A stretch of DNA of 64,000 nt from Nocardioides daejeonensis. GTDB taxonomy: Bacteria > Actinomycetota > Actinomycetes > Propionibacteriales > Nocardioidaceae. The translations under genes and the position numbers were made by a program. Location of the stretch: contig NZ_QHKZ01000005.1 of NCBI RefSeq assembly GCF_003194585.1, positions 1 to 64,000 on the forward strand. Direction: 5' to 3'. The first letter of the stretch is position 1; the number at the start of each line of letters is the position of its first letter. Under the pieces are notes generated by a model. That model was not told where the DNA came from, made no database searches, and saw nothing but the letters and a program-made list of their open reading frames with translations. This document shows positions 11,243-39,174 of the stretch, piece by piece.

Positions 11243-11301
11243 GGGCGGCTCCCTCGTCGTCGCGGATGTCCTGCTCCGGACCCTAGCCACGATTCGTGAA
11301 T

Positions 11302-11320: not shown

Positions 11321-11346
11321 CCGGCCCGCGACTCTTGGAGGAACCC

Positions 11347-14228: not shown

Positions 14229-14277
14229 GACTCTCTCCTGAGGTGTGGCTGGCGTCACCCGGAACCATACGTTATGT

Positions 14278-14300
14278 TTCATTATCAGCAATAGTGCTGA
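14278..14300 (+). promoter_or_regulatory. Shared regulatory box, copy 2, with overlapping inverted repeat
   Basis: TTCATTATCAGCAATAGT (14278-14295) shares TCATTATCAG and ATAG with the korA box and ATCAGCAAT with the 31486 box. It overlaps a perfect 6-4-6 inverted repeat, TCAGCA-ATAG-TGCTGA, at 14285-14300. It is located between the divergent ferredoxin reductase and aldehyde dehydrogenase genes. Confidence 0.5.
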
Positions 14301-14350
14301 GAACGATCTCATCACCCGCGTGGCGACGACGTTCGCCGGAGGGAGGCATC

Positions 14351-15826: not shown

Positions 15827-16692
15827 CCGGGCCGGGCCGGCTCGCAGGAAAGGTCGCCGTCGTGACCGGTGGTGCCAGCGGCATCGGTGCCGGCACGGTG
15901 CGGCTCTTCCATGCCGAGGGCGCGAAGGTGGTGATCGCCGACCTGCAGGCTGACGCGGGCGAGGCACTGGCCGTCGAGCTTGGTGCGGGAGCCGTCTTCC
16001 GGCGTACCGATGTCACCGACGAGGCGTCGATCGCGGCGGCCGTCGATGCCGCGGTCACGGAGTTCGGCCGGCTCGACGTCATGTTCAACAACGCCGGGAT
16101 CATCGGTGCGGTCGGTCCGATCGATCGCACCCGCACGGAGGATGCCGACCTGACCATCGCGGTCAACTTGCGTGGCGTCCTGCTGGGCATGAAGCACGCG
16201 GCACGGGTGATGAAAGTCCAGCGCTCCGGCGTGATCATCTCGACCTCCAGTCCGGCGGGCGTGATGGGCGGCGTCGGCGCACACGTCTACAGTGCGGTCA
16301 AGGCCGGCATCATCGGGCTCTCGAACTCCGTAGCGGCCGAGCTGCGCGCGTTCGGCGTGCGCGCGAACGTGATCATCCCGGGCGCGGTCGTCTCGCAGAT
16401 GACCGCGGATCTGGTGGCGGGCGGCGCCGACGACCTCGCCGGCGCACAGGAGGCCCTTGACCGCTCCCGCTACATGAGCCGCCCCTTGCAGCCGGCCGAC
16501 GTCGCAGCAGGCGTGCTCTACCTGGCCAGTGACGAGGCGGCCTTCGTGACCGGCATCGTGCTGCCGGTCGACGCGGGCATGACCGGTGCCGGCGGCCCCT
16601 CGCCGATGGCCGACGAGAAGTACGCCGACCAGGCGGGCCGCCGTGAGGCCGGCCGTCGTGTCGGCGCCGACGACACCCCGAAGGAGTTCTGA
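15823..16692 (+). CDS. Short-chain dehydrogenase/reductase
   Basis: This 289-residue SDR has TGGASGIG (15-22), NNAG (89-92), and the catalytic Ser142/143, Tyr156 and Lys160 (YSAVK). Its ATG overlaps the aldehyde dehydrogenase stop (ATGA), so the two are coupled. The segment AGVMGGVGAHVYSAVK resembles the 2548 SDR. The C-terminal 35 residues beyond the usual VDAGMTGAGG end are polar and charged. It probably acts as an alcohol dehydrogenase feeding the aldehyde dehydrogenase, or as a hydroxyacyl-CoA dehydrogenase; the sequence does not decide. Confidence 0.9.
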   Translation: MTGPGRLAGKVAVVTGGASGIGAGTVRLFHAEGAKVVIADLQADAGEALAVELGAGAVFRRTDVTDEASIAAAVDAAVTEFGRLDVMFNNAGIIGAVGPIDRTRTEDADLTIAVNLRGVLLGMKHAARVMKVQRSGVIISTSSPAGVMGGVGAHVYSAVKAGIIGLSNSVAAELRAFGVRANVIIPGAVVSQMTADLVAGGADDLAGAQEALDRSRYMSRPLQPADVAAGVLYLASDEAAFVTGIVLPVDAGMTGAGGPSPMADEKYADQAGRREAGRRVGADDTPKEF

Positions 16693-18991: not shown

Positions 18992-19777
18992 ATGGATGAC
19001 AAGCGAGTTCTGATCACCGGGGCGGCCCAGGGGATGGGGCGCCAGATCGCGGTGGAGATGGCACGGCAGGGAGCGGCGTACGTCTCGGTGGCGGACATTG
19101 CGACCGAGGGTGCGGAGGAGACGCTGGCGCTCGTGGAGGCGGCCGGTGGGCGTGGGCAGGTGGTCCGTGTCGACCTGACCGACTCCGCCGACGTGCGAAC
19201 CATGGTGGAGACCGCGGTCCGGGGCGGGGGCGGGTTGGACACGCTGGTCAACAATGCCGGCGTCATCGACTCGGCTTTCGCGCCTGAGCTGGCCACGGTC
19301 GACCGGCTCCCCGAGGAGGTGTGGGACCGGGTGTTCGACATCAACGTGAAGGCCGTCTACCTCGCCACGCAGGCAGCGAGCGCTGCCTTGCGAGCCTCGG
19401 CCAACGGGCCGTCGATCGTCAACGCGGCGTCAGTGGCCGGCCTGACGGGATACGCGACGCCCGCGTACGTCGCCAGCAAGGGCGCGGTCGTCCAGCTCAC
19501 CAAGGCGACCGCCATCGGACTCTCGCCCGAGGTGCGTTGCAACGCGTTCGCGCCCGGCTCGATCGAGACACCGATGGCACGGGAGCGGATCGCCTCCGCG
19601 GACGATCCGGTGCGCCAGGAGTGGCTGATGACGGGTGCACACCTGATCCCGCGCTTCGGTCGTGCCGAGGAGGTCGCCGAGGTGGTCTGCTTCCTCGCCT
19701 CCGACCGTGCCTCCTTCCTGACCGGCGTCACTGTTCCCGTCGACGGCGGCTTGATGGCCTGGCGGGGACTGCGCTGA
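18992..19777 (+). CDS. Short-chain dehydrogenase/reductase
   Basis: This 261-residue SDR has TGAAQGMG (9-16), NNAG (87-90), and the catalytic Ser147, Tyr159 and Lys163 (YVASK). AGGAGAGG stands 7 bases before the ATG. It is the closest paralogue of the SDR at 7673, with the same SIVNAASV, RFGRAEEVAEVVCFLASD-like and VPVDGG-MAWRGL segments. It is isolated between a REP array and the TRAP operon. The substrate is unknown; two paralogues in one island suggest two stereochemically different or sequential alcohol oxidations. Confidence 0.9.
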   Translation: MDDKRVLITGAAQGMGRQIAVEMARQGAAYVSVADIATEGAEETLALVEAAGGRGQVVRVDLTDSADVRTMVETAVRGGGGLDTLVNNAGVIDSAFAPELATVDRLPEEVWDRVFDINVKAVYLATQAASAALRASANGPSIVNAASVAGLTGYATPAYVASKGAVVQLTKATAIGLSPEVRCNAFAPGSIETPMARERIASADDPVRQEWLMTGAHLIPRFGRAEEVAEVVCFLASDRASFLTGVTVPVDGGLMAWRGLR

Positions 19778-20014: not shown

Positions 20015-21298
20015 ATGACTGGAGTACTGGGTTCGCGGCGGGTCGGTGTGCTCGCTGCCGTGATGGTGGTCGGGGCCGGCGCCCTGTCCGCGTGCGCCGA
20101 GGAAGGCGCTGGCAACCAGGCGGGTGGCGAGGGCATCGAGGCCGGCGCCTCGATGGAGGACTACCAGAAGGCCTTCGAGGACATCAACCAGATCACCCTG
20201 CTGACCCAGACTCCCGCGCCCAAGGGCTCGGTGACGGGCCTCCCGCAGGAGAAGTACTACGAGGCGGTCGAGGAGTGGTCGGGCGGCAAGATCAAGTTCG
20301 ACATCGCGTACTCGAACGCGGTTGCCGAGCCGGCCGAGATCGACGACGCGCTCGTCGACGGCCGTCTCGACATCGCCTCCACCCTGCCGATCTACGAGCC
20401 GAGCGAGTACCCGGCGAACGCGGCGCTGATCGAGGCGGGCTTCATCTCGGACCACAGCGCGCTCGAAGGAGCGTTGAGCTCCAACGCATGGCCGAACCAG
20501 GTCGCCTTCGGCAATGACGACATCCTCAAGGAGTTCGACGACCACGGGCTCGTCCCGCTGGTGCCGCTCTTCAACTCGGGCGCCAACGCACTCTTCTGCT
20601 CGCAGAAGCGCACCAGCCTCTCCGACCTCAAGGGCACCTCGGTGGGTGCCGGCGGTCAGGCCCAGTCCGCCGAGGTCGAGGCGATCGGTGGCTCCCCGGC
20701 GTCCATCCCCTACACCGAGCTCTACGAGAGCCTGCAGCGCGGCGTCGTCGACTGCACCGTCTCCAGCCCCACGGTGGCCGTCCTCGGTGGCTTCTTGGAG
20801 ACCGCTCCGTTCGTGACCATCGACCCGCAGGCGGGCTTCTCCCTGGCGCCGGGCACCTTCTCCTTCAGCAAGACCACCTGGGACACGCTGCCGCTGGTCG
20901 CCCAGCAGCTCCTCTGGGACCGGCTTGACGTCTTCGTCGCGGCCAACATCGAGGAGAAGATCTTCTTCAACAACGCCGCCATGGCCGACTCGGTGGCCAA
21001 GTTCAAGGGCGCGATCAATGTCTTCGACGAGGACGCCCGGGCGGCACTGCAGAAGAAGAACGACGAGCTCCTGAACAAGCTCTCCGGGACCAAGGCCGTT
21101 AGTGACGGCAAGGCCTTCGTCGAGTCGCTCCAGGCTGCCAACACCGACTGGCAGGAGAAGGTCGGCGGGCTCGGGCTCGATGACGTCAGCTACGCCGACT
21201 TCGGCGCCTGGTGGGCCCAGAACAAGGACTCGGTCGACCTGAGTTCCTTCACGACGCTGTTCCAAGAGGAGATCCTCGCGGAGCACCGCCCCTCCTGA
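20015..21298 (+). CDS. dctP: TRAP transporter substrate-binding lipoprotein
   Basis: This 427-residue DctP-type protein captures the substrate outside the membrane and delivers it to the DctQM permease. The N-terminus has a hydrophobic signal sequence followed by the lipobox LSAC (Cys near residue 27), so it should be a membrane-anchored lipoprotein. TRAP binding proteins normally bind carboxylates, which fits uptake of an organic acid. The long form and the NSGANALFCSQKR and VDCTVSSP segments fit the family. It heads an operon of at least eleven genes and is followed by a strong stem-loop before dctQ. Confidence 0.92.
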   Translation: MTGVLGSRRVGVLAAVMVVGAGALSACAEEGAGNQAGGEGIEAGASMEDYQKAFEDINQITLLTQTPAPKGSVTGLPQEKYYEAVEEWSGGKIKFDIAYSNAVAEPAEIDDALVDGRLDIASTLPIYEPSEYPANAALIEAGFISDHSALEGALSSNAWPNQVAFGNDDILKEFDDHGLVPLVPLFNSGANALFCSQKRTSLSDLKGTSVGAGGQAQSAEVEAIGGSPASIPYTELYESLQRGVVDCTVSSPTVAVLGGFLETAPFVTIDPQAGFSLAPGTFSFSKTTWDTLPLVAQQLLWDRLDVFVAANIEEKIFFNNAAMADSVAKFKGAINVFDEDARAALQKKNDELLNKLSGTKAVSDGKAFVESLQAANTDWQEKVGGLGLDDVSYADFGAWWAQNKDSVDLSSFTTLFQEEILAEHRPS

Positions 21299-21325
21299 TC
21301 CCCCGGATCAGAACCGTGTTCGAGT

Positions 21326-21354
21326 TGGTGGCCCGGACTCCCTCCGGGCCACCA
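21326..21354. promoter_or_regulatory. Stem-loop between dctP and dctQ
   Basis: TGGTGGCCCGGA (21326-21337) pairs perfectly with TCCGGGCCACCA (21343-21354) across a five-base loop. It lies 28 bases after the dctP stop and before dctQ. It probably acts as a partial terminator or RNA stabiliser giving excess binding protein over permease, as in other solute-binding-protein operons. Confidence 0.7.
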
Positions 21355-21377
21355 GCCATCCTCCTGATGGAGACCAG

Positions 21378-21998
21378 ATGAGCAACGCAGAGCGCCGGCG
21401 GCCAACGTGGCTGCGGCCCGAGCTGTTGATCGAGATCCCGGCCGTGATCGTGACCTTCGTGATGATGTTCCACATCACCGCGAACGCCCTGTTGCGGACC
21501 TTCAAGGACGACCCGATCGACAACACCCTTGAGATCACCCAGTACTGGTACCTGCCGATCATCGCGTTCCTCGGCTTCATCGCCGCTCAGGCGCGTGGGC
21601 AGCACATTGCTGCCGACCTGATCTATGAGCGGCTGCCGGAGGTCTCCAAGCGCTACGTACTGGCGATCCTCTCGGTGCTCGCGGCCGTGGTCTGCGCGGG
21701 ATTCGCCAAGTACGGCTGGGGCGAGGCGGTGCATGCGCACGAGATCGAGAAGACCGCCGGCGTGAGCGACCTCCCGGCCTGGCAGCCCTACTACCTGGTA
21801 CCTCTCGCGTTCGGAGTCATGACGCTCCAACTGCTCTGGGCCGCCGGGCGCGCCCTGGTCAAGGGCGACAGCCACCACATCGTCACCGACCCCGATGACC
21901 TCCTGCTTCTCGAAGAGCTCGAGGAGATGGAGGCGCGAGAGGCCGCCGAGCGGCTCTCCGCAGACAACGCAGCCAACCCGAAGGAGGAGTCGCGATGA
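21378..21998 (+). CDS. dctQ: TRAP transporter small permease
   Basis: This 206-residue integral membrane protein has four hydrophobic stretches: about 15-35 (IPAVIVTFVMMFHITANALL), 52-75, 92-112 (YVLAILSVLAAVVCAGFA) and 140-160. The size and pattern fit DctQ, the small subunit of a TRAP carboxylate transporter. The tail is strongly acidic (LLLLEELEEMEAREAAE). Its stop overlaps the dctM start as ATGA, so the two permease subunits are made together. Confidence 0.9.
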   Translation: MSNAERRRPTWLRPELLIEIPAVIVTFVMMFHITANALLRTFKDDPIDNTLEITQYWYLPIIAFLGFIAAQARGQHIAADLIYERLPEVSKRYVLAILSVLAAVVCAGFAKYGWGEAVHAHEIEKTAGVSDLPAWQPYYLVPLAFGVMTLQLLWAAGRALVKGDSHHIVTDPDDLLLLEELEEMEAREAAERLSADNAANPKEESR

Positions 21999-23500
21999 GC
22001 AGCAGCACCGCGACCGCAGACGCCGCCGACGGTGTCGAGACGCCGCCTGGACCTCCCGCGACCGGCTCGCGCGGCTCGCTCGGCTCCTGGCTGACCCTCG
22101 GAATCACCCTCACCCTGGTGGTCGGCTCGACGATCGCCATGTTCCTTCCCCTCATTCCCGAGGCGATCGGCCTGGCGGCGATCGTGCTCATGCTCTGCCT
22201 GACCTTCCTCCGACTCCCGGTCGCCCTGGCGATGATCGTGCCGGCGTTCCTGGGCATGTACGCCCTGCGTGGCGAACTGCTCGTGGAGAGCATGTTCAAG
22301 ACGCTCCCCTATGGCCAGGTCGCGGAGTGGACGCTCAGCGTCGTGCCGATGTTCATCCTGATGGGCCTGCTGCTGTGGCGCGCGGGACTGACGGAGAGCC
22401 TCTATGCAGCTGGCCGGAAGTGGCTCGGCTGGATGCCCGGCGGCCTGGCTGTCGGGACGAACCTCGCCGGCGCGGGTCTCGCCTCGGTGAGCGGCTCGTC
22501 CGTCGGGACGGCGTACGCGCTGGCCCGGATCGGCATCCCCGAGATGCTCAAGGCCGGCTACGACAAGCGGCTGGCGATCGGCGCGGTCATCGTGGCCGGG
22601 TTGCCCGGCCAGCTCATCCCGCCGAGCATCATGCTGGTGATCTACGCGGGGATCGCTGAGGTGCCGATCGGGCCTCAGTTGCTCGCCGGAATCGGCCCCG
22701 GAGTCCTGGTCGCGATCCTCTTCACGGTGATGATCGTGATCTTCGCCAAGCGTTGGGCGCCGACGGTCGCGGAGGAGCAGCAGCTCCACGAGCAGGTCAC
22801 CTGGGGCGACCGCTTCGCCAGCCTCGCCAAGATCTGGCCGGTGCCGCTGCTCATCGCAGTCATCGTCTGGGGGATGTTCTCCGGCACCTTCACCGCCACC
22901 GAGGCGGGTGCCGCCGCGGCGGTCATCTCCCTGCTCATCACGGTGATCTGGAAGTGGGGCGACGGTCCGCTCCGCGCCATCGCGGACGCTTCGGTGGCGA
23001 CTGTCAGCAGCGTGGGCGGCATCTTCTTCATGCTGGTCGGCGTCGAGGCGCTCTCCCGGATGTTCACGTTGACCGGCATCAGCACCGGGTTCGCCGAGTT
23101 GGTCGAGTCGATGGACCTCAACCGGGTCAGCTTCCTGCTGGTGATGATGGTGGTCTACATCGTGCTCGGCACCTTCATGGAGCCGTTGCCGATGATGGTG
23201 CTCACCATCCCGATCCTGATGCCCACGCTGATCTCCCTGGACATCTCGCTGCTCTGGTACGGCGCCTTCGCTGTGCTCATGGGCGAGCTCGCCGTGGTCA
23301 CCCCGCCCGTTGGGATCCTCGCCTTCATCATCCACCAGATCACGAAGGAGCCCGAGGTCAACCAGGGACAGAACATCCGGCTCAACGACGTCTTCAACGC
23401 GTGCTGGTGGTTCATGCCGATGGCCATTCTCGTGACCGTGATCCTGATCTTCTTCCCGGAGATCAGCACCTGGCTGCCCGACATGGCCTCCGGCAACTGA
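21995..23500 (+). CDS. dctM: TRAP transporter large permease
   Basis: This 501-residue membrane protein has about twelve hydrophobic segments, with family motifs VPMFILMGLLLWRAGL, GTAYALARIGIPEML, AGLPGQLIPPSIMLVIYAG and FTATEAGAAAAV. DctM carries out sodium-coupled transport of the substrate released by DctP. The ATG overlaps dctQ (ATGA), and the P450 gene follows after 24 bases. Linkage of uptake to a P450 in one operon suggests that the imported acid is itself the hydroxylation substrate or gives rise to it. Confidence 0.93.
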   Translation: MSSSTATADAADGVETPPGPPATGSRGSLGSWLTLGITLTLVVGSTIAMFLPLIPEAIGLAAIVLMLCLTFLRLPVALAMIVPAFLGMYALRGELLVESMFKTLPYGQVAEWTLSVVPMFILMGLLLWRAGLTESLYAAGRKWLGWMPGGLAVGTNLAGAGLASVSGSSVGTAYALARIGIPEMLKAGYDKRLAIGAVIVAGLPGQLIPPSIMLVIYAGIAEVPIGPQLLAGIGPGVLVAILFTVMIVIFAKRWAPTVAEEQQLHEQVTWGDRFASLAKIWPVPLLIAVIVWGMFSGTFTATEAGAAAAVISLLITVIWKWGDGPLRAIADASVATVSSVGGIFFMLVGVEALSRMFTLTGISTGFAELVESMDLNRVSFLLVMMVVYIVLGTFMEPLPMMVLTIPILMPTLISLDISLLWYGAFAVLMGELAVVTPPVGILAFIIHQITKEPEVNQGQNIRLNDVFNACWWFMPMAILVTVILIFFPEISTWLPDMASGN

Positions 23501-23524
23501 GCTCGCGACTAGGAAAGGACGACC

Positions 23525-24730
23525 ATGACCGAGACGACACACCGCGGATGCCCGGTCGCGCACACCGACTTCACCGGCACCGCCCCGCTCTACGAGCACT
23601 ACAAGATGCTCGACAACGACCGGGAGCAGGCCCGCTTCCTCTTCAACGACACGACCGACCGTGGCTTCTTCATGCTCCAGCGGTACGACGACGTGCGCGA
23701 CGGGTTCCAGCAGCACGACACCTGGACCACCGCGGTGCGGTCGGCGCTGCGCCCGAACACGGCCAGCGACCCCCTGCTCCCGCAGGACCTCAACGGTCAG
23801 GAGCACGTGAAGCTGCGCCGGATCCTCAACCAGTTCTTCGCCCCAGCGGCGGTGCGCCGGATGGAGCCGATGGCTCAACAGCGTTGCATCGAGTTGATCG
23901 AGGAGCTGAAGCCGGCCGGCTCGTGCGACTTCGTCGCCGAGTTCGCCATCCGGTACCCGACCGACATGTTCCTGGCTCTGCTCGGCCTGCCGGTCAGTGA
24001 CGGCGAGCAGTTCCTGGAGTGGTCCGACGAGTACTTCAGCGCCTTGCTGGCCGGCGACCCTGCCGGTGCGACGACCGCCAAGGCCAGCATCATGAACTAC
24101 TTCGACGAGGCGGTGAACGAGCGTCGCGCCAACCCGCGCGACCCGAAGGAGGACATGGTCACCCGCCTGGTGCAGGCGCGGATCGACGACGTGCCGCTGA
24201 CCCAGGACGAGATCCTCACGATCTGCCTCACCCTGATGCTGGCCGGACTGGACACCACCCGCAGTGCGCTCGGCTTCATCTACACGCACCTGGCCCAGCA
24301 TGACGCCGACCGGCAGGCGATCATCGACGACCCCACGTTGATCCCCAAGGCGGTGGAGGAGTTCCTTCGTCTGTACCCGCTTGTCTTCCAGGCCGGCCGA
24401 GAGGTGCAGGAGCCGCAGGAGTTCAACGGGGTGGAGTTGGAGAAGGGCGACGTCGTCTGGCTCGGGATCGCCCAGGCCAACCGCGACCCCCGCAAGTTCG
24501 ACAACCCGGACGAGTTCGACGTCAACCGGCCGAACGTCAACCAGCACATCGCATTCGGCGGCGGCCCGCACCGCTGCCTGGGGATGCACCTCGCTCGCCT
24601 GGAACTGAAGATCGTGCTGGAGGAGTGGCACAAGAGGATCCCGGAGTACCGCATCACGCCGGGTACCGAGCTGCGGGAGCGCGGTGTGCAGCTGAGCATG
24701 GCCGCGCTGCCGCTCGAGTGGGAGGTGTAG
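23525..24730 (+). CDS. Cytochrome P450 monooxygenase
   Basis: This soluble bacterial class I P450 of 401 residues has the I-helix oxygen-activation motif AGLDTT (240-245), the K-helix ExxR (Glu279, Arg282) and the heme-binding loop FGGGPHRCLG with the axial Cys351. It hydroxylates an organic substrate with O2 and two electrons, delivered here by the ferredoxin encoded three bases downstream and probably by the reductase at 12999. It sits directly after dctM in the central operon. The family number cannot be assigned by eye. It parallels the P450-led igr operon of mycobacterial cholesterol degradation, but no steroid-ring genes are present here. Confidence 0.95.
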   Translation: MTETTHRGCPVAHTDFTGTAPLYEHYKMLDNDREQARFLFNDTTDRGFFMLQRYDDVRDGFQQHDTWTTAVRSALRPNTASDPLLPQDLNGQEHVKLRRILNQFFAPAAVRRMEPMAQQRCIELIEELKPAGSCDFVAEFAIRYPTDMFLALLGLPVSDGEQFLEWSDEYFSALLAGDPAGATTAKASIMNYFDEAVNERRANPRDPKEDMVTRLVQARIDDVPLTQDEILTICLTLMLAGLDTTRSALGFIYTHLAQHDADRQAIIDDPTLIPKAVEEFLRLYPLVFQAGREVQEPQEFNGVELEKGDVVWLGIAQANRDPRKFDNPDEFDVNRPNVNQHIAFGGGPHRCLGMHLARLELKIVLEEWHKRIPEYRITPGTELRERGVQLSMAALPLEWEV

Positions 24731-24733
24731 GAG

Positions 24734-24949
24734 TTGTTCATCTCGATCGACGCCGACAAGTGCATGGGGCACGGTCGTTGCTACGCGGTCGCGCCTGACC
24801 TGCTGAGCGACGACGACGAGGGCTTCGTCGCGCAGCGCGGGCAGTGCTGGGAGATCCCGGAGGGTTTGCTCGGCCAAGCCGAAGAGGCCGCCGATGCGTG
24901 CCCCGAGGGTGCCATCGCCGTACTGGAGACCGCGCCCAGCAATGCCTAG
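24734..24949 (+). CDS. [3Fe-4S]-type ferredoxin partner of the P450
   Basis: This 71-residue ferredoxin has cysteines 10 and 16 (C-x5-C) and Cys56 before proline, the ligand set of small [3Fe-4S] (or [4Fe-4S]) ferredoxins that accompany actinobacterial P450s. Cys38 is extra. The TTG start at 24734 is supported by GGAGG overlapping the P450 stop; no other start fits between the genes. The 3' end overlaps the CoA-transferase gene by eight bases. It passes single electrons from a ferredoxin reductase to the P450. Confidence 0.92.
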   Translation: MFISIDADKCMGHGRCYAVAPDLLSDDDEGFVAQRGQCWEIPEGLLGQAEEAADACPEGAIAVLETAPSNA

Positions 24950-26183
24950 CGGACTTCTCGAGCACCTGCGTGTCCTCGACCTGACCGACGAGCGGGGCCT
25001 GCTCTGTGGGCGACTCTTCGCCGATCTCGGCGCTGACGTCGTGCAGGTCGAGCCGCTCGGCGGGTCGACCGCCCGGCAGGCACCGCCGGTCGCCGAGCAG
25101 ACCGGGGTCTCCCTCTACTGGGAGACGTACGCCGCCGGCAAGCGAGGCGTCAGTGTCGACCTCGACGACGATGCCTCCGTGGAGCGGATCCGCGCCCTCG
25201 CCCGGGTGTCCGACGTGGTGATCACCTCCTGGCCGCGGGCACTGGTCGAGCGGCTGGGCCTCGACCCACTTGCGGTGCACGAGGACAACCCCCGCGCGAT
25301 CTACACCGTCATCTCCGGCTTCGGCTGGGACGGCCCCAAGGCGGAGTACGCCGACACCGACCTGGTGGTCTGGGCGGCGGGCGGACCGCTCGCCCCGCAT
25401 CGTGACGGCGACCGTCCGCCACTGCGCATCTCGGTCCCCCAGGCCTACCTCCATGCCTCGGCCGATGCGGCCGCCGGTGCCCTGATCGCCGTGTTGGCTC
25501 GTGCTCAGCACGACTGTGGCCAGGTCGTCGACGTCTCCGCGCAGGCGGCCATCGGGGTAGCCACGCTGGCGAGGGTTCTGGCGACCGCGGTCGGTGACGA
25601 TCACCCGGAGTGGCAGACGACACCCGGGCGCCCGACCGGCGGACGCACCGACCAGAGTGGTTCGGGAGCCGCGACGCCCAACAGCCTGAAGAAGTGGTAC
25701 TGCCGCGACGGCATGGTCGAGCTGCACCTCTCGATGGGCCCCGCTGCCGGCGCCTTCACCAACAACCTCTTCCGGTGGATCGCCGAGGAGGGCGGGGTCG
25801 ACGAGCCCATTGCTTCCTGGGACTGGCGGGTCGTTCCCGACCAGCTGGTCTCCGGGGAGCTCAGCCACGACCAACTCGACGAGGCGAGGGCCGCCGTACG
25901 CGCCTTCTTGCTCGGCAAGACGAAGGCCGAGGTGCTCGAGGGGGCGATCGAGCGCCGGTTGCTGTGCATGGCGATCTTCGACATGTCCGACATCGCGGGT
26001 AGCCCGCACCTTGCCTATCGCGACTTCTGGGGCGCCGTACCGATGCCCGGAGCGGACGCTCCGGTCGCTGTCCCCGGACGGATCGCTCAGGTGCGCGGCC
26101 CGGCCGGCCCGATGGTCGCCGGAGCGGCGCCCGCGATCGGGGAGCACGACGACGTCGTATTCAAGGAGTGGCTGGCGCGATGA
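24942..26183 (+). CDS. CoA-transferase family III protein, catalytic aspartate replaced
   Basis: This 413-residue CaiB/BaiF-type protein has the family opening LRVLDLTDERGLLCGRLFADLGADVVQVEP, the AAGKRGVSVDL strand and the VVDVSAQAAIG helix region. Family III CoA-transferases move CoA between acids through an aspartyl-CoA intermediate. When aligned with the two other copies in this window, the catalytic Asp position is occupied by Tyr169 (in PQAYLHA). It overlaps the ferredoxin by eight bases and the next CoA-transferase by four (ATGA). It is therefore probably a structural subunit of a heteromeric transferase with the 26180 product. Confidence 0.88.
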   Translation: MPSGLLEHLRVLDLTDERGLLCGRLFADLGADVVQVEPLGGSTARQAPPVAEQTGVSLYWETYAAGKRGVSVDLDDDASVERIRALARVSDVVITSWPRALVERLGLDPLAVHEDNPRAIYTVISGFGWDGPKAEYADTDLVVWAAGGPLAPHRDGDRPPLRISVPQAYLHASADAAAGALIAVLARAQHDCGQVVDVSAQAAIGVATLARVLATAVGDDHPEWQTTPGRPTGGRTDQSGSGAATPNSLKKWYCRDGMVELHLSMGPAAGAFTNNLFRWIAEEGGVDEPIASWDWRVVPDQLVSGELSHDQLDEARAAVRAFLLGKTKAEVLEGAIERRLLCMAIFDMSDIAGSPHLAYRDFWGAVPMPGADAPVAVPGRIAQVRGPAGPMVAGAAPAIGEHDDVVFKEWLAR

Positions 26184-27430
26184 CGAACGAGACGACGAAC
26201 CGGGGAACCACGCCCCACGCGCTCGCCGGGCTGAAGGTCCTCGACCTCTCCTGGGTGGTTGCGGGGCCGCTCATCGGCCGTGCCCTGGCGGACTTCGGTG
26301 CCGAGGTGGTGCGCGTCGAGTCGAGTGTGCGGGTGGAGACCGCTCGTCTCATGCAGCCCTTCCACGGCGGTGTGCAGGACAAGGAGGGCTCCGCGCTCTT
26401 CGGCAACTGCAACGCCGGGAAGCGCGGCCTCACCCTCGACCTCAAGAGCGCCGAGGGGCAACAGGTCGTCCGCGACCTGGTCGGCTGGGCCGACGTGGTC
26501 GTGGAGTCGTTCTCGCCGGGACAGCTGAAGAAGTGGGACCTCGACTACGACGCGCTGCGCGTCATCAAGCCCGATCTGGTCATGCTCAGCACCTCGATCG
26601 CCGGTCAGGACGGTCCGTGGGCCACGCTTGCAGGCTTTGGCAACGTGGGCTCGTCGCTGAGCGGCTTCCAGCACCTGGTCGGCTACGACGACCGGCTGCC
26701 GATGGGCACTTTCGGCCCCTACACCGACTACGTCGGGCCGCGGCTGGCGCTGGTGACGTTGTTGGCGGCGTTGGAGAACCGGCGCCGGACCGGAGAGGGC
26801 GCCTACATCGACGTCGCCCAGGTCGAAGCAGGCATCTTCTTCCTCTCCCCGCAGGTCGCCCACTATGGGTACGACGGCACGATCGCCGAGAGGCACGGCA
26901 ACCGCGATCCCCACCTGGTGCCACATGGCGTCTTCCCGGCTCGGGCCGTCGACGGCAAGGAGCGGTTCGTCGCGATCGCGGTCCGGGACCGGGCCGAGTG
27001 GATCGCCCTGGCTCGCGCGATGGGCCGTGAGGACCTGGCCGAACGGGACGACCTGGCGAGCGCCGACGGGCGGCGTGCGGCCGAGGGCGAACTGGAGCAG
27101 CTGATCGCCACGTGGACCGCGGAGCGGCCGGCTGTCGAGGTCGAGACGCTCCTGCAGGCCGCCGGCGTGCCGGCTCACGCCGCCGTCACCAGCGACGACT
27201 ATCAGCATGAGCCGCAGCTGGCCCATCGCGGGCACCTCGTGGAGCTTCCGCACGCTCGTCATGGGCGAACGTTCGTGGAGGCGCCGCGCTACCGGCTCTC
27301 TGCCACCCCGGGCGCCCCGCGACGTGCGGCTCCGGCGTTGGGCCAGGACAACGACTCGGTGCTTCGGGAACTGCTCGACTACGACGCTGCGCGCATCGCC
27401 GCGCTGCGAGAAGGAGGGATCCTGCGATGA
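26180..27430 (+). CDS. CoA-transferase family III, catalytic subunit
   Basis: This 416-residue CaiB/BaiF-type CoA-transferase starts with LAGLKVLDLSWVVAGPLIGRALADFGAEVVRVES and contains KRGLTLDLKSAEG and the conserved aspartate Asp183 in GPYTDYVGP, the nucleophile position of the family. It would transfer CoA from a donor thioester to a carboxylic acid. It is coupled by ATGA overlaps to the preceding non-canonical CoA-transferase and to the following MaoC gene. Paired CoA-transferase genes are known from the two-subunit benzylsuccinate CoA-transferase (BbsEF), which supports a heteromer. Confidence 0.9.
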   Translation: MTNETTNRGTTPHALAGLKVLDLSWVVAGPLIGRALADFGAEVVRVESSVRVETARLMQPFHGGVQDKEGSALFGNCNAGKRGLTLDLKSAEGQQVVRDLVGWADVVVESFSPGQLKKWDLDYDALRVIKPDLVMLSTSIAGQDGPWATLAGFGNVGSSLSGFQHLVGYDDRLPMGTFGPYTDYVGPRLALVTLLAALENRRRTGEGAYIDVAQVEAGIFFLSPQVAHYGYDGTIAERHGNRDPHLVPHGVFPARAVDGKERFVAIAVRDRAEWIALARAMGREDLAERDDLASADGRRAAEGELEQLIATWTAERPAVEVETLLQAAGVPAHAAVTSDDYQHEPQLAHRGHLVELPHARHGRTFVEAPRYRLSATPGAPRRAAPALGQDNDSVLRELLDYDAARIAALREGGILR

Positions 27431-28050
27431 CCGCTGTCGACACGGGAAGCCCGGACTGGACCGAGCAGTGGCAGGAGGTGATCGACGCCGTCGGACGCGA
27501 CTTCCTCGAGGGTGAGACCACCTGGGGTGGCGACCCCGTGGAGCGTGGCGCGATCCGGCGCTACCTCGAGCCGCTGGAGCTCGACTGCGCACTGCACACC
27601 GACCCGGCAGCGGCCCGTGCGGCCGGCTACGACGACGTGGTGATGCCGGCTACCGGTGTGATCGCCTGGACCATCCCGGCCGCCTGGCGCCCCGGTGAGG
27701 TGCTCTTCGACTCCGAGGACCGCAACGCGCAGCCAGTGCACACCGCGATCAACAACACCGATCTCGGTATGGGACCGAAGACGACTGGCTTCTTCGGCAC
27801 CGACATCGAGCTGGACTTCGACCGTGAGGTGGTCGCCGGCGAGCAGCTCGGCCGCCGCGGCAAGCGGCTGGTTGCCTGCAAGCCGAAGGAGACAGGTGTC
27901 GGCCGCGGTGCCTTCATGACCTGGGAGAGCGAGATTGTCGCTCGACCTGGTCACGTCGCCGACGCCGAGCCCGAGGTCGTCGGACGGATCCGCATCGGCA
28001 CCTACGCCTACGTGCCGCACCCGAAGAAGGATGAGGAGGCTGCGCGATGA
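27427..28050 (+). CDS. MaoC-like hydratase subunit (N-terminal hot-dog type, non-catalytic pattern)
   Basis: This 207-residue protein has the MaoC_dehydrat_N/FAS1_DH pattern: YLEPLELDC, AAGYDDVVMPATGVIAWT near residues 65-80, and a hot-dog strand-rich second half (ELDFDREVVAGEQLGRRGK). The R-hydratase active-site motif seen in the next gene is absent, so it probably pairs with that protein to form a heteromeric enoyl-CoA hydratase, as ChsH1-ChsH2 do in mycobacterial cholesterol side-chain degradation. Both ends overlap neighbours by ATGA. Confidence 0.85.
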   Translation: MTAVDTGSPDWTEQWQEVIDAVGRDFLEGETTWGGDPVERGAIRRYLEPLELDCALHTDPAAARAAGYDDVVMPATGVIAWTIPAAWRPGEVLFDSEDRNAQPVHTAINNTDLGMGPKTTGFFGTDIELDFDREVVAGEQLGRRGKRLVACKPKETGVGRGAFMTWESEIVARPGHVADAEPEVVGRIRIGTYAYVPHPKKDEEAAR

Positions 28051-28535
28051 GCACGGTCCCGAACGCACTGACCGGCCGCAGGTTCGACGAGGTCACCGTC
28101 GGTGAGCAGCTGCCGGACGTAGCGCTGCCCTTGACCGTCTACCGCCTGGTGATGGCCGCAGGCAGCAATCGTGACTTCAACTCGATCCACCACAACACGG
28201 AGTACGCCCGTTCGACCGGAGCCGAGGAGATGTATGCCAACACCTCGTTCCTGATGAGTTCCTGGGAGCGGCTGGTCCGTGATTGGTGCGGCGAGGCCGG
28301 CCGGATCCGTGCGATCCGCGGCTTCCGAATGCGCTCCTTCAACTACGTCGGCACCACCATGCGGGTGCTCGGCGAGGTCACCGGTACCCGAGTCGAGGAG
28401 GGTCCGCAGGGTGCGGTCGGCGTCGTCGAGGTGGCCGTTCGCTGTGAAGGACCCCAGGGCATCACCGTCGGCCCTGGCACGGTCGAGGTGCTGCTGCCCG
28501 TCGACGCGTCGTACAACGAGGAGAACACCCCATGA
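28047..28535 (+). CDS. MaoC-like enoyl-CoA hydratase, catalytic subunit
   Basis: This 162-residue hot-dog protein has the R-specific hydratase motif AAGSNRDFNSIHHN near residues 36-49, with the Asp and His that activate water. It hydrates an enoyl-CoA to a hydroxyacyl-CoA. The overlaps with the 27427 gene upstream and the thiolase-fold gene downstream (ATGA each) indicate a tightly coupled hydratase-aldolase unit. The substrate is probably a 2-enoyl-CoA, perhaps alpha-branched, because the next enzyme resembles Ltp2. Confidence 0.9.
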   Translation: MSTVPNALTGRRFDEVTVGEQLPDVALPLTVYRLVMAAGSNRDFNSIHHNTEYARSTGAEEMYANTSFLMSSWERLVRDWCGEAGRIRAIRGFRMRSFNYVGTTMRVLGEVTGTRVEEGPQGAVGVVEVAVRCEGPQGITVGPGTVEVLLPVDASYNEENTP

Positions 28536-29707
28536 GCATCGACTCCCCCCGGACCGCGATCGTCGGCCTGGGCATCACCGAGATGGGCAAGGTCTACGGC
28601 CGGTCCGCCACAGACTTCGCTGTCGAGGCGATCACCAGTGCTGTCGCTGATGCCGGGCTGAGCCTGTCGGACGTCGACGGACTCTACGTGAACCCCGGCA
28701 TCAAGAACGACACCGACATGCGTCTGCAGTCCACGCTCGGGATGCGCGACACCCGTGTCCTGGCGACGATCCAGGGTTTCGGCTCCTCGGCCGGGCAGAT
28801 GGTGCAGTACGCCTCCCTGGCGATCGAGGCCGGGATGGCTGACGTCGTCGTGTGCGTCTACGCCGACGCTCCCCTCAAGGAGGGAAAGCGCGCTGGCGCC
28901 GCCTATCCCGGGCAGGCTCGCGCCATGGTCGGTGTGGGTTCCCTGCCGTTCGCCGCCGGCCTCAAGGCCGCTCCGGAGCGCTATGCCGTGGGCGCTCGCC
29001 GCCACATGCACGCCTACGGGACGACGTCGGAGCAGTTCGGCGCCGTCGCCGTGGCCGCGCGTCAGTGGGCGCAGCTGAACCCGCACGCGCAGATGCGCGA
29101 GCCGATGACGCTCGAGGACCATCAGGCCTCCCGGATGATCGCCGACCCGTTGCGTCTGCTCGACTGCTGCCTGGTCAGCAACGGAGCGGTGGCCGTGGTG
29201 GTCACCAGCGCCGAGCGGGCCGCCACCCTCAAGCAGCCGCCGGTGCACATCTGGGGCTGGGGGCAGGCGCACCCGGGCTACGTCAACCGGCGTGACAGCG
29301 AGTTCGGCCTGGTGACCGGCGCTGCGCAGTCCGGCCCCGCTGCCCTGAAGATGGCCGGTGTCGGGGTGGAGGAGATCGACATCCGCGAGATCTACGACTG
29401 CTTCACCTACACCACGCTCGTCACCCTCGAGGACTACGGCTTCTGTGCGAAGGGCGAAGGCGGCGAGTTCGTCGCCAGCGGCGCGATCGCACCGGGCGGG
29501 ACGCACCCGACCAACACCGGCGGCGGCGAGCTCTCCTCCTACTACATGTGGGGCATGACGCCGCTCTCCGAAGCGGTCATCCAAGCCCGCGGCCAGGCCG
29601 GTGAACGCCAGGTCGGCAAGCACGACCTGGTGATGGTCAGCGGCAACGGCGGCGTCCTCGACTTCCACTCCACCCTGATCCTCAGCCCCCATCCGAAGGG
29701 ACGGTGA
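28532..29707 (+). CDS. Thiolase-superfamily protein without catalytic cysteine (Ltp2-like retro-aldolase)
   Basis: This 391-residue lipid-transfer/SCP-x thiolase-fold protein lacks the thiolase nucleophile: where thiolases have a cysteine before SSG or ATG, this protein reads GFGSSAG (82-88). The GHPxGxTG histidine loop is replaced by NTGGGELSSYYMWGM (328-342). The tyrosine-rich YDCFTYT at 288-294 matches Ltp2-type aldolases, which cleave a beta-hydroxyacyl-CoA in the cholesterol side chain together with a DUF35 partner. That partner is encoded next, overlapping by GTGA. Retro-aldol cleavage of the hydrated CoA ester is therefore the best prediction. Confidence 0.87.
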   Translation: MSIDSPRTAIVGLGITEMGKVYGRSATDFAVEAITSAVADAGLSLSDVDGLYVNPGIKNDTDMRLQSTLGMRDTRVLATIQGFGSSAGQMVQYASLAIEAGMADVVVCVYADAPLKEGKRAGAAYPGQARAMVGVGSLPFAAGLKAAPERYAVGARRHMHAYGTTSEQFGAVAVAARQWAQLNPHAQMREPMTLEDHQASRMIADPLRLLDCCLVSNGAVAVVVTSAERAATLKQPPVHIWGWGQAHPGYVNRRDSEFGLVTGAAQSGPAALKMAGVGVEEIDIREIYDCFTYTTLVTLEDYGFCAKGEGGEFVASGAIAPGGTHPTNTGGGELSSYYMWGMTPLSEAVIQARGQAGERQVGKHDLVMVSGNGGVLDFHSTLILSPHPKGR

Positions 29708-30108
29708 GTGCGATGGCACTGGCACCCGTAGTCCGTGACGACTTCTCCGCGCCGTTCTTCGAGGGCACGGCGGCCGGCAAGCTGCTGCTGCGCTACTCGC
29801 CCAGCAGCGGGGAGTGGTCGGAGCCTGCTGCTCGGTTCTGCTCGGTTACCCAGGCAGACGACCTGGAGTGGCGCGAGTCCTCCGGTGCCGGGACGTTGGT
29901 GAGCTGGACGATCAAGCCCGGCCGCACCAAGGACGAGGTCACCACTCCCGACGTGGTCATCGGCATCGTCGAGCTCGCCGAGGGCCCGTGGCTGTCGCTG
30001 TGGCTCCCCGAGGTCGACCAGTCGGCGCTGGCGATCGGTGCCGGCGTACGCGTCGACTTCCTCCGTCCCGAGGGCAGCGAGCACCTCCCCGTCGCCCGCC
30101 TGTCCTAG
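29704..30108 (+). CDS. DUF35 OB-fold protein, probable aldolase partner; zinc-ribbon cysteines missing
   Basis: This 134-residue acyl-CoA-associated OB-fold (DUF35) protein begins at the GTG overlapping the aldolase stop (GTGA) with AAGGGA upstream; ATG at 29713 is an alternative. The N-terminal helix DFSAPFFEGTAAGKLLLRYSP and the GAGTLVSWTIKPG OB strand fit the family. The usual two CxxC knuckles are reduced to one cysteine (ARFC), so a zinc ribbon is unlikely. In mycobacterial ChsH2 the DUF35 domain is fused to a MaoC domain; here it stands alone. It should form a complex with the 28532 product. Confidence 0.87.
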   Translation: MSAMALAPVVRDDFSAPFFEGTAAGKLLLRYSPSSGEWSEPAARFCSVTQADDLEWRESSGAGTLVSWTIKPGRTKDEVTTPDVVIGIVELAEGPWLSLWLPEVDQSALAIGAGVRVDFLRPEGSEHLPVARLS

Positions 30109-30363: not shown

Positions 30364-31443
30364 TCAGAAGGTGACGACGGTGCGCGCCACGGTGGCGTGG
30401 TGCAGCTCGTCCAGCGCTTCGCCGACGTCGGCGAGGTCGATGGCGCGACCCATCAGCGGGTCCAGGTCGAGGCGACCGGCCAGGTACATCTCCGCATACA
30501 ACGGTACGTCGACCCGCAGCTGGGTGCCACCCAGCCGGGAGCCCTGGATCCGCTTCTCGCTCAAGAAGGCGGTGGTCGGCAGTTCGACGGTGTCGCCGGC
30601 TCGAGCCAGCCCGACGACGGTGGCCGTGCCGCGGGTGCCGAGCATCGCGAAGGCTTGGGAGATGGTCGCGGGCAGGCCGACCACCTCGATGGCGTGGTCG
30701 ACGCCGCCGGTCAGGTCCAAGACGGCGGTGACGGGGTCGTCGGTCGACGCGTCGATGAGATCGGTGGCGCCGAAGTGGCGCGCGGTCTCGAGCTTGGCTC
30801 CGACGCGGTCGATGGCGACGATCCGTGAGGCGCCAGCGAGGACCGCGCCCTGGATGGCGCTGAGGCCGACGCCGCCGCAGCCGATCACCGCAACCGTCTC
30901 CCCGATCCGGACGCCGGCCGTGTGCCGGATCGCTCCCAGGCCGGTGATCACCGCGCAGCCGAGGAGCGCTGCCTTGTCGAGCGGCATCCGCGCCGGCACC
31001 TTGGCGACGCTGGACTCGCGTACCAGCATCTCCTCAGCGAAGCTGCCGATGCCTACGAACTGCGTGACCGGGCGGTCGTCGAGATTGAGGCGGGAGCCCT
31101 GGCCCTCGGGGCGTACCCGCGCCAGGTTGGTGCAGTGCTGCGGCAGCCCCCGACTGCACCACGAGCAGGTTCCGCAGGAGCCGGCCGGCGCCACCACCAC
31201 GTGATCGCCGGGTCGCACCGAGCTGACTCCGCTGCCCACCTCGAGCACTACGCCGGCTGCCTCGTGGCCGAGGACGACCGGCAGGCCGAGGGCGGGATTC
31301 CCTCCCGTCTGGCCGTGCCGGTCGGAGTGGCAGATACCGGTCGCCGCCGTCCGGATGCGGACCTCCTGCGGCAGGATGGCCCCGAGGTCGACGTCCATCA
31401 GCTCGGGACGCTGGTCGAAAGCGGTCAGGACGGCAGCACGCAT
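30364..31443 (-). CDS. Zinc-dependent alcohol dehydrogenase (class III-like MDR)
   Basis: This 359-residue zinc MDR enzyme has the catalytic zinc ligands Cys38 (GICHSD) and His60 (GHEAAG), four structural zinc cysteines at 90, 93, 96 and 104, and the cofactor motif VIGCGGVGLSAIQG. It oxidises a primary or secondary alcohol with NAD+. Its promoter region, divergent from the MenB/BadI-like gene, carries a shared regulatory box, so it likely belongs to the same pathway, perhaps acting on the alcohol formed by the P450 or by ester hydrolysis. Confidence 0.93.
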   Translation of the reverse strand: MRAAVLTAFDQRPELMDVDLGAILPQEVRIRTAATGICHSDRHGQTGGNPALGLPVVLGHEAAGVVLEVGSGVSSVRPGDHVVVAPAGSCGTCSWCSRGLPQHCTNLARVRPEGQGSRLNLDDRPVTQFVGIGSFAEEMLVRESSVAKVPARMPLDKAALLGCAVITGLGAIRHTAGVRIGETVAVIGCGGVGLSAIQGAVLAGASRIVAIDRVGAKLETARHFGATDLIDASTDDPVTAVLDLTGGVDHAIEVVGLPATISQAFAMLGTRGTATVVGLARAGDTVELPTTAFLSEKRIQGSRLGGTQLRVDVPLYAEMYLAGRLDLDPLMGRAIDLADVGEALDELHHATVARTVVTF

Positions 31444-31555: not shown

Positions 31556-32338
31556 ATGTCTGCGATCGAGATCGAACGCCGAGGGACGGCGTTGTGGATC
31601 ACCATTAACCGGCCGGACCGGCTCAATGCCTTCGACCTGGAGATGGGCCGAACCATGACGGCAGCCTTCGAGCAGGAGGGCGCATCGGCCGACGCCGTCG
31701 TCCTCACCGGCGCCGGTGGCGCGTTCTGCGCGGGTGGCGCGCTGGACCAGCTGGGCACACCGGACCCCGACCAGCTGCGGGCGCTCTTCACCGGTTCGCT
31801 GCGACTCGTCGAGGCGATCCGCGCCTGCCCGCGGCCGGTGATCGCGGCTGTCGACGGTGCGGCAGCTGGTGGCGGCAACGAGTTGGTCGTCGCGTGTGAC
31901 TTCGCCATCGCCACCGAGCGCTCGACCTTCGGCCAGACCGGTCCCAAGGTCGGCTCCGCGCCCGTGCTCGGCGCCACCAACCTGATGTCGGTGCAGATCG
32001 GCGAGAAGCGCGCCAAGGAGATGGCGATGCTGTGTCGTCGCTACTCCGCCACGCAGGCTCTGGAACTCGGGCTGATCAACGAGGTCGTTCCTGACGGAGG
32101 TCTCGACGAGGCGGTCGACCGCTGGCTCGGCGAGATCGGGCGGCTCAGCCCGCGCTACCTGGAGATCGCCAAGATCAGCTCCAACGTGTGGTGGAACCTC
32201 GGCAAGGACAACATGTCCTCCGGCCTCGGCATGCTCATCCAGGCGATCGGCAGCGAGGACATGGTGGAGGGCGCCAACGCCTTCCTCGAGAAGCGCAAGC
32301 CAGACTTCCGCGGCGCCCGCCGCACCGACCAGAACTGA
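31556..32338 (+). CDS. Crotonase-family enzyme, MenB/BadI-like (possible ring-opening hydrolase)
   Basis: This 260-residue crotonase-fold enzyme carries, besides the oxyanion-hole segments GGAFCAGG (54-61) and AAAGGGNEL, the stretch FGQTGPKVGS (125-134) followed by CRRYSATQALELGLIN (160-175). These are diagnostic of 1,4-dihydroxynaphthoyl-CoA synthase (MenB) and of 2-ketocyclohexane-1-carboxyl-CoA hydrolase (BadI), rather than of simple enoyl-CoA hydratases. No menaquinone genes are nearby, and a CoA ligase and a CitE-like lyase follow, so hydrolytic opening of a beta-keto alicyclic CoA ester is the better prediction. The MSAIE start at 31556 is the first credible one. Confidence 0.87.
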   Translation: MSAIEIERRGTALWITINRPDRLNAFDLEMGRTMTAAFEQEGASADAVVLTGAGGAFCAGGALDQLGTPDPDQLRALFTGSLRLVEAIRACPRPVIAAVDGAAAGGGNELVVACDFAIATERSTFGQTGPKVGSAPVLGATNLMSVQIGEKRAKEMAMLCRRYSATQALELGLINEVVPDGGLDEAVDRWLGEIGRLSPRYLEIAKISSNVWWNLGKDNMSSGLGMLIQAIGSEDMVEGANAFLEKRKPDFRGARRTDQN

Positions 32339-35832: not shown

Positions 35833-35882
35833 GGTGGTCTCCTCCTGCGTAGTCGGGGTCGTCGGGGTGCTCCGGCTGTCGG

Positions 35883-36641: not shown

Positions 36642-36676
36642 GATGGGTCTTCTCCTTGGTCGGTGGGTGGCTCCGG

Positions 36677-37976: not shown

Positions 37977-37997
37977 TACAACCAAGGAGGTGGATTG

Positions 37998-39149: not shown

Positions 39150-39174
39150 GCGCCGGTCAGGAGAGGATGAGGTC

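Follow-up and report, generated by a model that had tools for sequence, protein, structure and literature searches.

Thiolase-fold proteins that act with a DUF35 partner as retro-aldolases are known from the breakdown of steroids and of ibuprofen. The igr operon begins with a cytochrome P450 (P450) gene and continues with two middle subunits, two MaoC units, and an aldolase. Among such aldolases, TcLtp2 uses Tyr294 and Tyr344 and CtSal uses Tyr302 and Cys304, according to the available part of PMC12329534. The ibuprofen step has been presented as a retro-aldolase reaction that yields propionyl-CoA and 4-isobutylcatechol, in a paper whose available portion also speaks of an 'ipfDE-encoded thiolase' (PMC9195938). 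According to the available text of one source (PMC12724338), Baeyer-Villiger monooxygenases have as a rule been characterised on non-natural substrates, and what they do in bacteria is still unknown. Here, we describe a predicted operon at positions 20015-30108 of a 64,000-nucleotide stretch (the window; contig C15, positions 1-64000) from the soil actinomycete Nocardioides daejeonensis, whose 4.4-Mb genome has a completeness of 99.99%. The operon probably encodes a module of the IpfD clade, with a predicted retro-aldolase, and lies in a conserved cluster with a monooxygenase of the phenylacetone monooxygenase (PAMO) type. This PAMO-bearing context is the unreported part of the finding.

On the plus strand, the genes follow the order dctP, dctQ, dctM (a tripartite ATP-independent periplasmic, or TRAP, carrier), P450, ferredoxin, CaiA, CaiB, MaoC1, MaoC2, thiolase-fold protein, and DUF35. 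From dctP to DUF35 they are one tightly packed gene run, a predicted operon, with 4-nt overlaps at five junctions (dctQ/dctM, CaiB/MaoC1, MaoC1/MaoC2, MaoC2/thiolase-fold, and thiolase-fold/DUF35) and gaps of 79 nt between dctP and dctQ (the longest), 24 nt between dctM and P450, and 3 nt between P450 and ferredoxin. An original prediction, made from the letters of the window, had named this packed operon, and all of its genes are present at about the positions it gave.

The thiolase-fold protein is probably a retro-aldolase of the IpfD clade, as judged from its residues and its place in the tree. All three residues typical of SCP2-type thiolases (the nucleophilic Cys, the His of HDCF, and the His of GHP) are missing: the nucleophile column holds Gly84, and the catalytic His columns hold Tyr288 and Tyr338. 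The original prediction had called the protein cysteine-less, which is right for the nucleophile and wrong for Cys290, retained in the motif YDCF (Y288-D-C290-F). Gly, YDC[FY], and Tyr fill these three columns in 80/80 relatives (L009-L088, the best 80 of 578 in a genome-wide scan), while L005, a reference paralog from the same genome, has Cys, HDCF, and His. With Ltp2 the protein shares the second catalytic Tyr (Tyr338 = Tyr344) and the Gly replacing the nucleophile, and with Sal it shares the Tyr-Cys of the YDC motif (Y288, C290). The YDHF motif of Ltp2 is not matched; L003 of the same genome, which falls in the Ltp2 clade, has YDAF. One aldolase thus combines the cysteine of Sal with the second tyrosine of Ltp2 and could clarify how acid and base roles are split, a question for which the solved relatives can serve as templates. 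By sequence, the closest of these are 4u4e, TcLtp2 (6ok1), and CtSal (9myr).

The tree comprised 42 rows: the window protein, 10/17 loci with the full module, 14/63 other loci, 5 plasmid loci, 7 paralogs from the same genome, and 5 PDB chains. It places the window protein and IpfD in one clade (support 100/98), within which a subclade (98/97) unites the window protein with the 10 included module loci. Outside the IpfD clade lie the groups of Ltp2 (100/99), Sal (100/100), and the thiolases (99/97). TcLtp2 pairs with L002/L003 of the same genome (98/97) and CtSal with L004 (100/100). Support is low (69/42) for the fork between the Ltp2 group and the IpfD group. Long branches lead to 4u4e and the paralogs L005-L008; it is on such branches that L007 falls in the Ltp2 group and that L006 and L008 fall in the thiolase group. 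The original prediction had assigned the parts specifically to the Ltp2-ChsH set, an assignment that the separate IpfD clade and the YDCF motif do not support; the grouping with genuine thiolases that it named as evidence against itself did not appear in the tree. A single-chain model (predicted local distance difference test score, pLDDT, 85.2) has its nearest folds in CtSal, TcLtp2, 4u4e, and TbSLP at Z 46-47 (9myr_A 47.2, 6ok1_A 47.1). As a separate observation, the Sal-like L004 (C13:434264-435346) is an actinomycete protein with the motif YDCY and shares its contig with the Ltp2-like paralogs.

The OB domain of the DUF35 partner is confirmed by PF01796 and by structure matches; its single-chain model (pLDDT 93.5) resembles Trf, CtShy-DUF35, and ChsH2-DUF35 at Z of about 15 (6htj_B 15.4, 9myr_B 15.3, 6ok1_B 15.2). 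Four zinc-ligand Cys are usual, though not universal, in DUF35 proteins. In the window protein a single Cys is left in the zinc-ribbon segment, in agreement with the original prediction that the ribbon cysteines are almost all lost. The segment holds 0-1 Cys in 16/17 module loci (L025 has three), and among 61 aligned DUF35 proteins from outside the module it holds 0-1 in 16, 2-3 in 4, and at least 4 in 41. Loss of the zinc ligands is general in the module clade, yet it recurs elsewhere. The partner was also predicted to be distinctive as a separate protein. It is separate, but a stand-alone DUF35 is the rule, with the gene directly following the aldolase gene in 61/63 relatives outside the module as well.

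The block from P450 to DUF35 is kept in 17/80 relatives (L009-L025) from the genera Pimelobacter, Nocardioides, Aeromicrobium, Actinomadura, Thermocatellispora, Thermobifida, and Streptomyces; the contig edge of L023 falls inside P450, and a short-chain dehydrogenase/reductase (SDR) gene stands between ferredoxin and CaiA in L024 and L025. The remaining 63/80 relatives have no P450, MaoC1, or MaoC2 matches of at least 45%. The genes dctPQM stand upstream of P450 in 12/16 loci where this is readable. The module is uncommon: at a strict cut-off the thiolase-fold protein occurs in 12/391 genomes of the order (own genome included; one of the 12 is only 65% identical), and MaoC1 at E<=1e-40 occurs in 6/394 genomes of the class (own genome included). 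In Thermobifida fusca (L023, 6.1 kb) and in the region of genome G566 (32.6 kb), DUF35 is followed by a gene that resembles dctP (39-40% identity). Genome G651 (C4, 18000-77999; L161-L163) has a divergent cluster with an aldolase of 58% identity and, close by, dctPMQ and monooxygenases of 46-48%.

The original prediction missed that CaiA and CaiB appear to be a heteromeric CoA-transferase pair resembling BbsEF. In the column of the catalytic Asp, CaiB has Asp in 18/18 sequences (window and 17 relatives) and CaiA in 0/18. Asp187 of CaiB aligns with the Asp of BbsF and of formyl-CoA transferase, while CaiA has QA[YF] in its place in the window and 17/17 relatives, as BbsE has QAY. In 10/17 relatives (L012, L016-L022, L024, and L025) a single open frame with no stop in between covers CaiA and CaiB, and in 7 the two are separate; this shared frame together with the Asp pattern supports one heteromeric enzyme. 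Both genes of the MaoC hydratase pair occur in 17/17 module loci, and the D-x4-H dyad of MaoC2 (DFNSIH) is kept in the window and 17/17 relatives; MaoC1 lacks D-x4-H but has D-x3-H (LDCALH) in the same set. Genome G120, one of the six genomes of the class with MaoC1, has the MaoC pair and no aldolase match in the 60 kb fetched.

Many of the genes that lie around the operon, from 3489 to 46596 of the window, are found again in differing orders in the fetched surroundings of 11 relatives (a gene was scored at an identity of at least 42%), and together they are a conserved cluster of 20-plus genes in five actinomycete families, a context that the original prediction likewise missed. In 11/11 relatives from all five families, the monooxygenase is within the region fetched around the operon, and in 15 relatives its distance from the aldolase is 10.6-31 kb in contig coordinates. 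An ortholog at E<=1e-120 is present in 17/18 module genomes, own genome included. The monooxygenase of the window shares 59% identity with PAMO over 537 columns and has the FxGxxxHxxxWP fingerprint at residue 166, between Rossmann motifs at 22 and 192. In T. fusca (L023) the monooxygenase is PAMO itself (PDB 1w4x, full length), and one 14-kb contig holds the module, PAMO, a hydrolase, a gene of the old-yellow-enzyme (OYE) type, and an alcohol dehydrogenase; the lower genes have their matches on another contig. The monooxygenase is also found in G566 (61%) and, at 46-48%, in G651. PAMO is a well-studied biocatalyst, and the conserved neighbourhood suggests a possible native role within a directly testable pathway. 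In the literature on a pathway with these parts or on a native role of PAMO, nothing was recognised as this cluster among the open-access matches listed. Transcriptome results for Rhodococcus opacus 1CP include PAMO-like genes, without this cluster in the available part of the paper (PMC13101518).

Starting from the observed gene content, motifs, tree position, fold, shared CaiA/CaiB frame in relatives, and conserved monooxygenase neighbourhood, we infer, with moderate confidence, the upper part of a pathway that degrades a beta-branched or cyclic organic acid, not necessarily a steroid, and in which a retro-aldol cleavage is followed by a Baeyer-Villiger oxidation. The individual reactions, their order, the formation of a complex, and the substrate are all predictions, and the residue roles are carried over from TcLtp2 and CtSal. 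The TRAP carrier would import the acid, P450 and ferredoxin would oxidise it, and the CaiA/CaiB heteromer would attach it to CoA. For a saturated acid, the downstream acyl-CoA dehydrogenases may form the 2-enoyl-CoA. MaoC1/MaoC2, of which MaoC2 bears the standard dyad, would then hydrate the beta carbon to give a tertiary or otherwise blocked 3-hydroxyacyl-CoA, presumably beyond the reach of normal beta-oxidation. The thiolase-fold protein and its zinc-less DUF35 partner could cleave this C-C bond in a retro-aldol reaction to acetyl- or propionyl-CoA and a ketone; Tyr288 would accept the hydroxyl proton, and Cys290 or Tyr338 would reprotonate the enolate. The PAMO-type monooxygenase would insert oxygen next to the ketone, the hydrolase would open the ester, and the alcohol and aldehyde dehydrogenases would take the alcohol to an acid.

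Several observations weigh against this proposal. The monooxygenase of the window lies 15 kb beyond the operon on the opposite strand, and within 10 kb on either side of the aldolase a monooxygenase of at least 45% identity occurs in 4/17 module loci (three of them partial) compared with 2/63 others. No monooxygenase of the L025 genome reaches E<=1e-120; there is just a 50% match with a coverage of 61%. The helper genes vary over the 11 regions (hydrolase 7, OYE-type gene 5, alcohol dehydrogenase 5), and the alcohol dehydrogenase of T. fusca is only 34% identical. The operon itself has no acyl-CoA dehydrogenase, the TRAP genes are missing beside P450 in 4/16 readable loci, and the P450 of G651 is only 33% identical and located elsewhere. 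Given its conserved D-x3-H, MaoC1 may not be inert, unlike the inert unit of ChsH2. SCP2-type and archaeal thiolases also fit the fold model well at Z 40-45 (classical thiolases at 33-34), and thus the fold alone does not separate the protein from all thiolases. Finally, the relatives share ancestry, and co-location is not independent for each genome.

The distance and strand of the monooxygenase favour another arrangement, in which the retro-aldolase module works as proposed and the monooxygenase acts elsewhere in the pathway, for example in ring opening, instead of on the released ketone. The BadI-like crotonase, the CitE-like lyase, and the amidohydrolase in the cluster likewise suggest a later ring or chain cleavage. 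We regard this arrangement as unlikely. In T. fusca, PAMO and the upper module stand on one contig and the lower genes on another; in G566 a distance of 7.5 kb separates the monooxygenase from the aldolase, with no lower gene found in the 60 kb fetched. Moreover, a monooxygenase of about 51% identity lies no more than 1.5 kb from the aldolase in L027 (11707-13284) and L062 (12547-14142), the 2/63 other loci counted above, where the rest of the module is missing.

It is distinctly improbable that P450 hydroxylates the beta carbon directly, as the dioxygenase does for ibuprofen, with the aldolase removing the acyl chain and the MaoC pair serving another step. The ibuprofen substrate does receive its hydroxyl via ring dioxygenation, and locus L093 consists of P450, ferredoxin, reductase, thiolase, and DUF35 with no MaoC in its annotation table. 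Against this stand the 4-nt overlap of MaoC2 with the aldolase gene and the presence of the MaoC pair in every module locus; G651 keeps MaoC and aldolase together with P450 apart.

A steroid or bile-acid side-chain module, in the form of an igr-like operon with divergent parts, is very improbable. Its role-by-role order does match the igr operon, and the genome has Ltp2-like paralogs and KshA_C matches at C13:486570 and C12:56719. The original prediction that there are no steroid-ring genes is borne out for the window, in which none was seen among the genes scanned, and fails for the genome as a whole with these two matches. KshA_C matches occur in 5/7 module genomes searched, own genome included, and T. 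fusca and Aeromicrobium camelliae (2/7) carry the module with no match, so the module is not bound to steroid-ring catabolism. Furthermore, the genome already has the Ltp2-like L002/L003 and the Sal-like L004, and neither the motif nor the tree position of the window protein is that of Ltp2. A steroid module was rejected as the principal interpretation on the basis of the KshA_C-free genomes and the tree. The idea that the hydratase and retro-aldolase module serves another acid is upheld to the extent that the acid need not be a steroid, given these two genomes and IpfD as the nearest relative found with experimental work. It is scarcely credible that the protein is a genuine thiolase or a Claisen-type acyltransferase working with DUF35 in the manner of BbsAB, PhlABC, or the archaeal thiolase/HMG-CoA synthase complex: a thiolase fold and DUF35 beside a BbsEF-like CoA-transferase, a BbsB match of 1.5e-28, and fold Z values of 42 (BbsB) and 45 (archaeal thiolase) speak for it, but the Gly and two Tyr columns in all 80 relatives and the separate clade of the solved thiolases led us to reject it.

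Returning to the retro-aldol and Baeyer-Villiger pathway, one more specific substrate can be named. Tentatively, and as a clearly unlikely option, the cluster may serve the catabolism of abscisic acid or a similar 3-methyl-2,4-dienoic (apocarotenoid) acid; if true, this would give the natural role of PAMO. The proposal comes purely from chemical reasoning and is a good fit to the gene set of T. fusca, whose 14-kb contig holds all of the proposed enzymes except the aldehyde dehydrogenase. The CoA thioester would be hydrated at the methyl-bearing beta carbon and cleaved to a methyl ketone (dehydrovomifoliol) and acetyl-CoA; an OYE-type enzyme may reduce the enone, the PAMO ortholog would make an acetate ester, and the hydrolase and the alcohol and aldehyde dehydrogenases would lead to rhodococcal acid. 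Such an acid requires no dehydrogenase ahead of the hydratase. An OYE-type gene in only 5/11 regions argues against it. Another chemistry that would fit is the degradation of cyclohexylacetate via hydration and lyase cleavage, known from old Arthrobacter work; in the literature on this route nothing relevant was among the matches listed. Dehydrovomifoliol (PMC7996341) and rhodococcal acid (PMC9599779) are both reported from Rhodococcus sp. P1Y in the available parts of these papers, and these known metabolites match the predicted intermediates. In the same parts, cleavage of a C2 unit and a Baeyer-Villiger step are put forward, with no enzymes assigned to them (PMC9599779; PMC7996341). No catabolic genes were found in the available parts of PMC12349427 and PMC12509608. 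It also counts against the abscisic reading that Rhodococcus is absent from the 17 full-module loci, which come from the best 80 of 578 relatives; P1Y was not looked up by name.

Domains of the operon proteins were assigned by Pfam and NCBIfam profile searches, and the features of the operon and of the wider cluster are collected in the table.

Table. Genes of the predicted operon and of the surrounding cluster, with their principal evidence and recurrence in related regions
Feature	Position	Strand	Evidence
dctP-like TRAP solute-binding protein	20015..21298	+	DctP PF03480 1.2e-21
dctQ, small TRAP membrane subunit	21378..21998	+	PF04290 4.6e-23
dctM, large TRAP permease	21995..23500	+	PF06808 5.4e-74
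Cytochrome P450	23525..24730	+	PF00067 7.7e-34
P450-type ferredoxin, CMGHGRC motif	24734..24952	+	Fer4_15 PF13459 6.9e-14
CaiA, class III CoA-transferase subunit (BbsE-like)	24945..26183	+	CoA_transf_3 2e-52; best PDB 9fn0_A 1.8e-32
CaiB, class III CoA-transferase subunit with Asp187 (BbsF-like)	26168..27430	+	CoA_transf_3 6.3e-103; best PDB 9fn0_B 1.3e-60
MaoC1, FAS1_DH-type (MaoC-like) hydratase subunit	27427..28050	+	FAS1_DH_region PF13452 5.1e-11
MaoC2, hydratase subunit (ChsH1 role)	28047..28535	+	MaoC 9.2e-4 (Pfam) and HadB-like 1.7e-11 (NCBIfam), both below cut-off
Thiolase-fold protein, probable retro-aldolase	28532..29707	+	Thiolase_C_1 1.9e-46; tree, active-site columns, fold model
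Stand-alone DUF35 protein	29704..30108	+	OB_ChsH2_C PF01796 3.6e-12
OYE/dienoyl-CoA-reductase-type flavoprotein, candidate enone reductase	3489..5474	-	PF00724 2e-39, PF07992 3.6e-20; 5/11 regions
Luciferase-like (LLM) oxidoreductase	11296..12360	+	PF00296 9.9e-55; 10/11 regions
Ferredoxin reductase	12999..14315	-	PF07992, PF14759; 8/11 regions
Aldehyde dehydrogenase, start uncertain	14348..15826	+	TIGR04284 3e-137, below cut-off; 10/11 regions
SDR 1	15823..16692	+	9/11 regions
SDR 2	18992..19777	+	7/11 regions
Zinc alcohol dehydrogenase	30364..31443	-	TIGR03989 8.3e-89, below cut-off; 5/11 regions
Crotonase, best NCBIfam match BadI	31556..32338	+	PF00378 1.3e-51; TIGR03210 1.7e-51, below cut-off; 9/11 regions
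Acyl-CoA ligase	32352..34019	+	PF00501 3.7e-62; 9/11 regions
CitE-like CoA-ester lyase	34023..34910	+	PF03328 1.7e-37; 10/11 regions
Crotonase, SDR, thiolase (crotonase and SDR at 35062-36725)	35062..37867	-	each gene 10/11 regions
Two acyl-CoA dehydrogenases	37995..40302	+	PF00441 5.1e-37 and 6.3e-37; each 10/11 regions
Amidohydrolase 2, start uncertain	40811..41881	+	PF04909 1.2e-25; 10/11 regions
GntR/FCD regulator	42040..42780	-	PF07729, PF00392; 7/11 regions
Alpha/beta hydrolase, candidate ester hydrolase	42832..43764	-	PF07859 4.6e-59; 7/11 regions
Third class III CoA-transferase-like protein, start uncertain	43757..44950	-	PF02515 5.5e-111; 10/11 regions
Type I Baeyer-Villiger monooxygenase, PAMO ortholog	44950..46596	-	59% to PAMO, fingerprint; 11/11 regions

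The TRAP genes recur in 7/11 regions. The start codon of ferredoxin is the TTG at 24734, and that of CaiA is most likely the ATG at 24945; a longer open reading frame from 24894 overlaps ferredoxin. The best PDB matches of the P450 are CYP101J2 (1.5e-58), CYP143 (3.7e-56), and CYP125MRCA (6.4e-53), and neither these nor the nearest solved DctP structures give a clear substrate hint. A promoter-like site at 19928-19956 lies upstream of dctP; promoter-like (1 versus 0.6) and terminator-like (4 versus 2.8) sites are about as many as in shuffled sequence. ARAGORN found no tRNA genes in the window. The operon is flanked by 18-bp tandem arrays of GGTGATCGAGC at 18823-18888 and 30136-30240. A pair of this unit at array spacing has 8 matches genome-wide, 7 of them within both flanking arrays, and was not found in L009-L025; the arrays are therefore not conserved. 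Further upstream, 5542-7632 encodes a 696-aa protein with acyl-CoA dehydrogenase N and M domains and the best C-domain match at 328-691; it has a second PF00441 stretch and is possibly a fused dehydrogenase pair.

Compared with known systems, the cluster shares parts with several and extends the thiolase-fold/DUF35 retro-aldolases to five actinomycete families. From the monooxygenase side it meets PAMO (1w4x), with the same fingerprint and with PAMO itself at the T. fusca locus. Each CoA-transferase subunit of the window has its best match in its counterpart chain of BbsEF (9fn0), one with Asp and the other with QA[YF], while the single open frame found in 10/17 relatives sets the pair apart from BbsEF. 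Sal-Shy of Comamonas testosteroni (9myr) shares the fold and the Tyr-Cys pair of YDC, yet belongs to another clade, and Shy is a single protein with MaoC and DUF35. Sal also has Gln where the window protein has Tyr338 (PMC12329534, in its available part). Ltp2-ChsH2 of Thermomonospora curvata (6ok1) shares the fold, the Gly at the nucleophile, the second tyrosine (Tyr338 = Tyr344), and two MaoC units, whereas the window has YDCF in place of YDHF, another clade, and a separate, zinc-less DUF35. The igr operon shares the leading P450, and in it an acyl-CoA dehydrogenase pair takes the place held by the CoA-transferase pair in the window. The nearest relative found with experimental work is IpfD of Sphingopyxis granuli RW412 (L091), a locus that we take to be ipf from its gene order and the ibuprofen literature, the record itself not bearing that name. 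IpfD is 47% identical and, like the window protein, has Gly in the nucleophile column and Tyr in the two thiolase-His columns, with YDAF instead of YDCF, and IpfE is likewise an adjacent, separate DUF35 protein that has lost its zinc ligands (1 Cys). Where the window has P450, a BbsEF-like CoA-transferase, and the MaoC pair, the ibuprofen locus carries genes for a ring dioxygenase and a CoA ligase.

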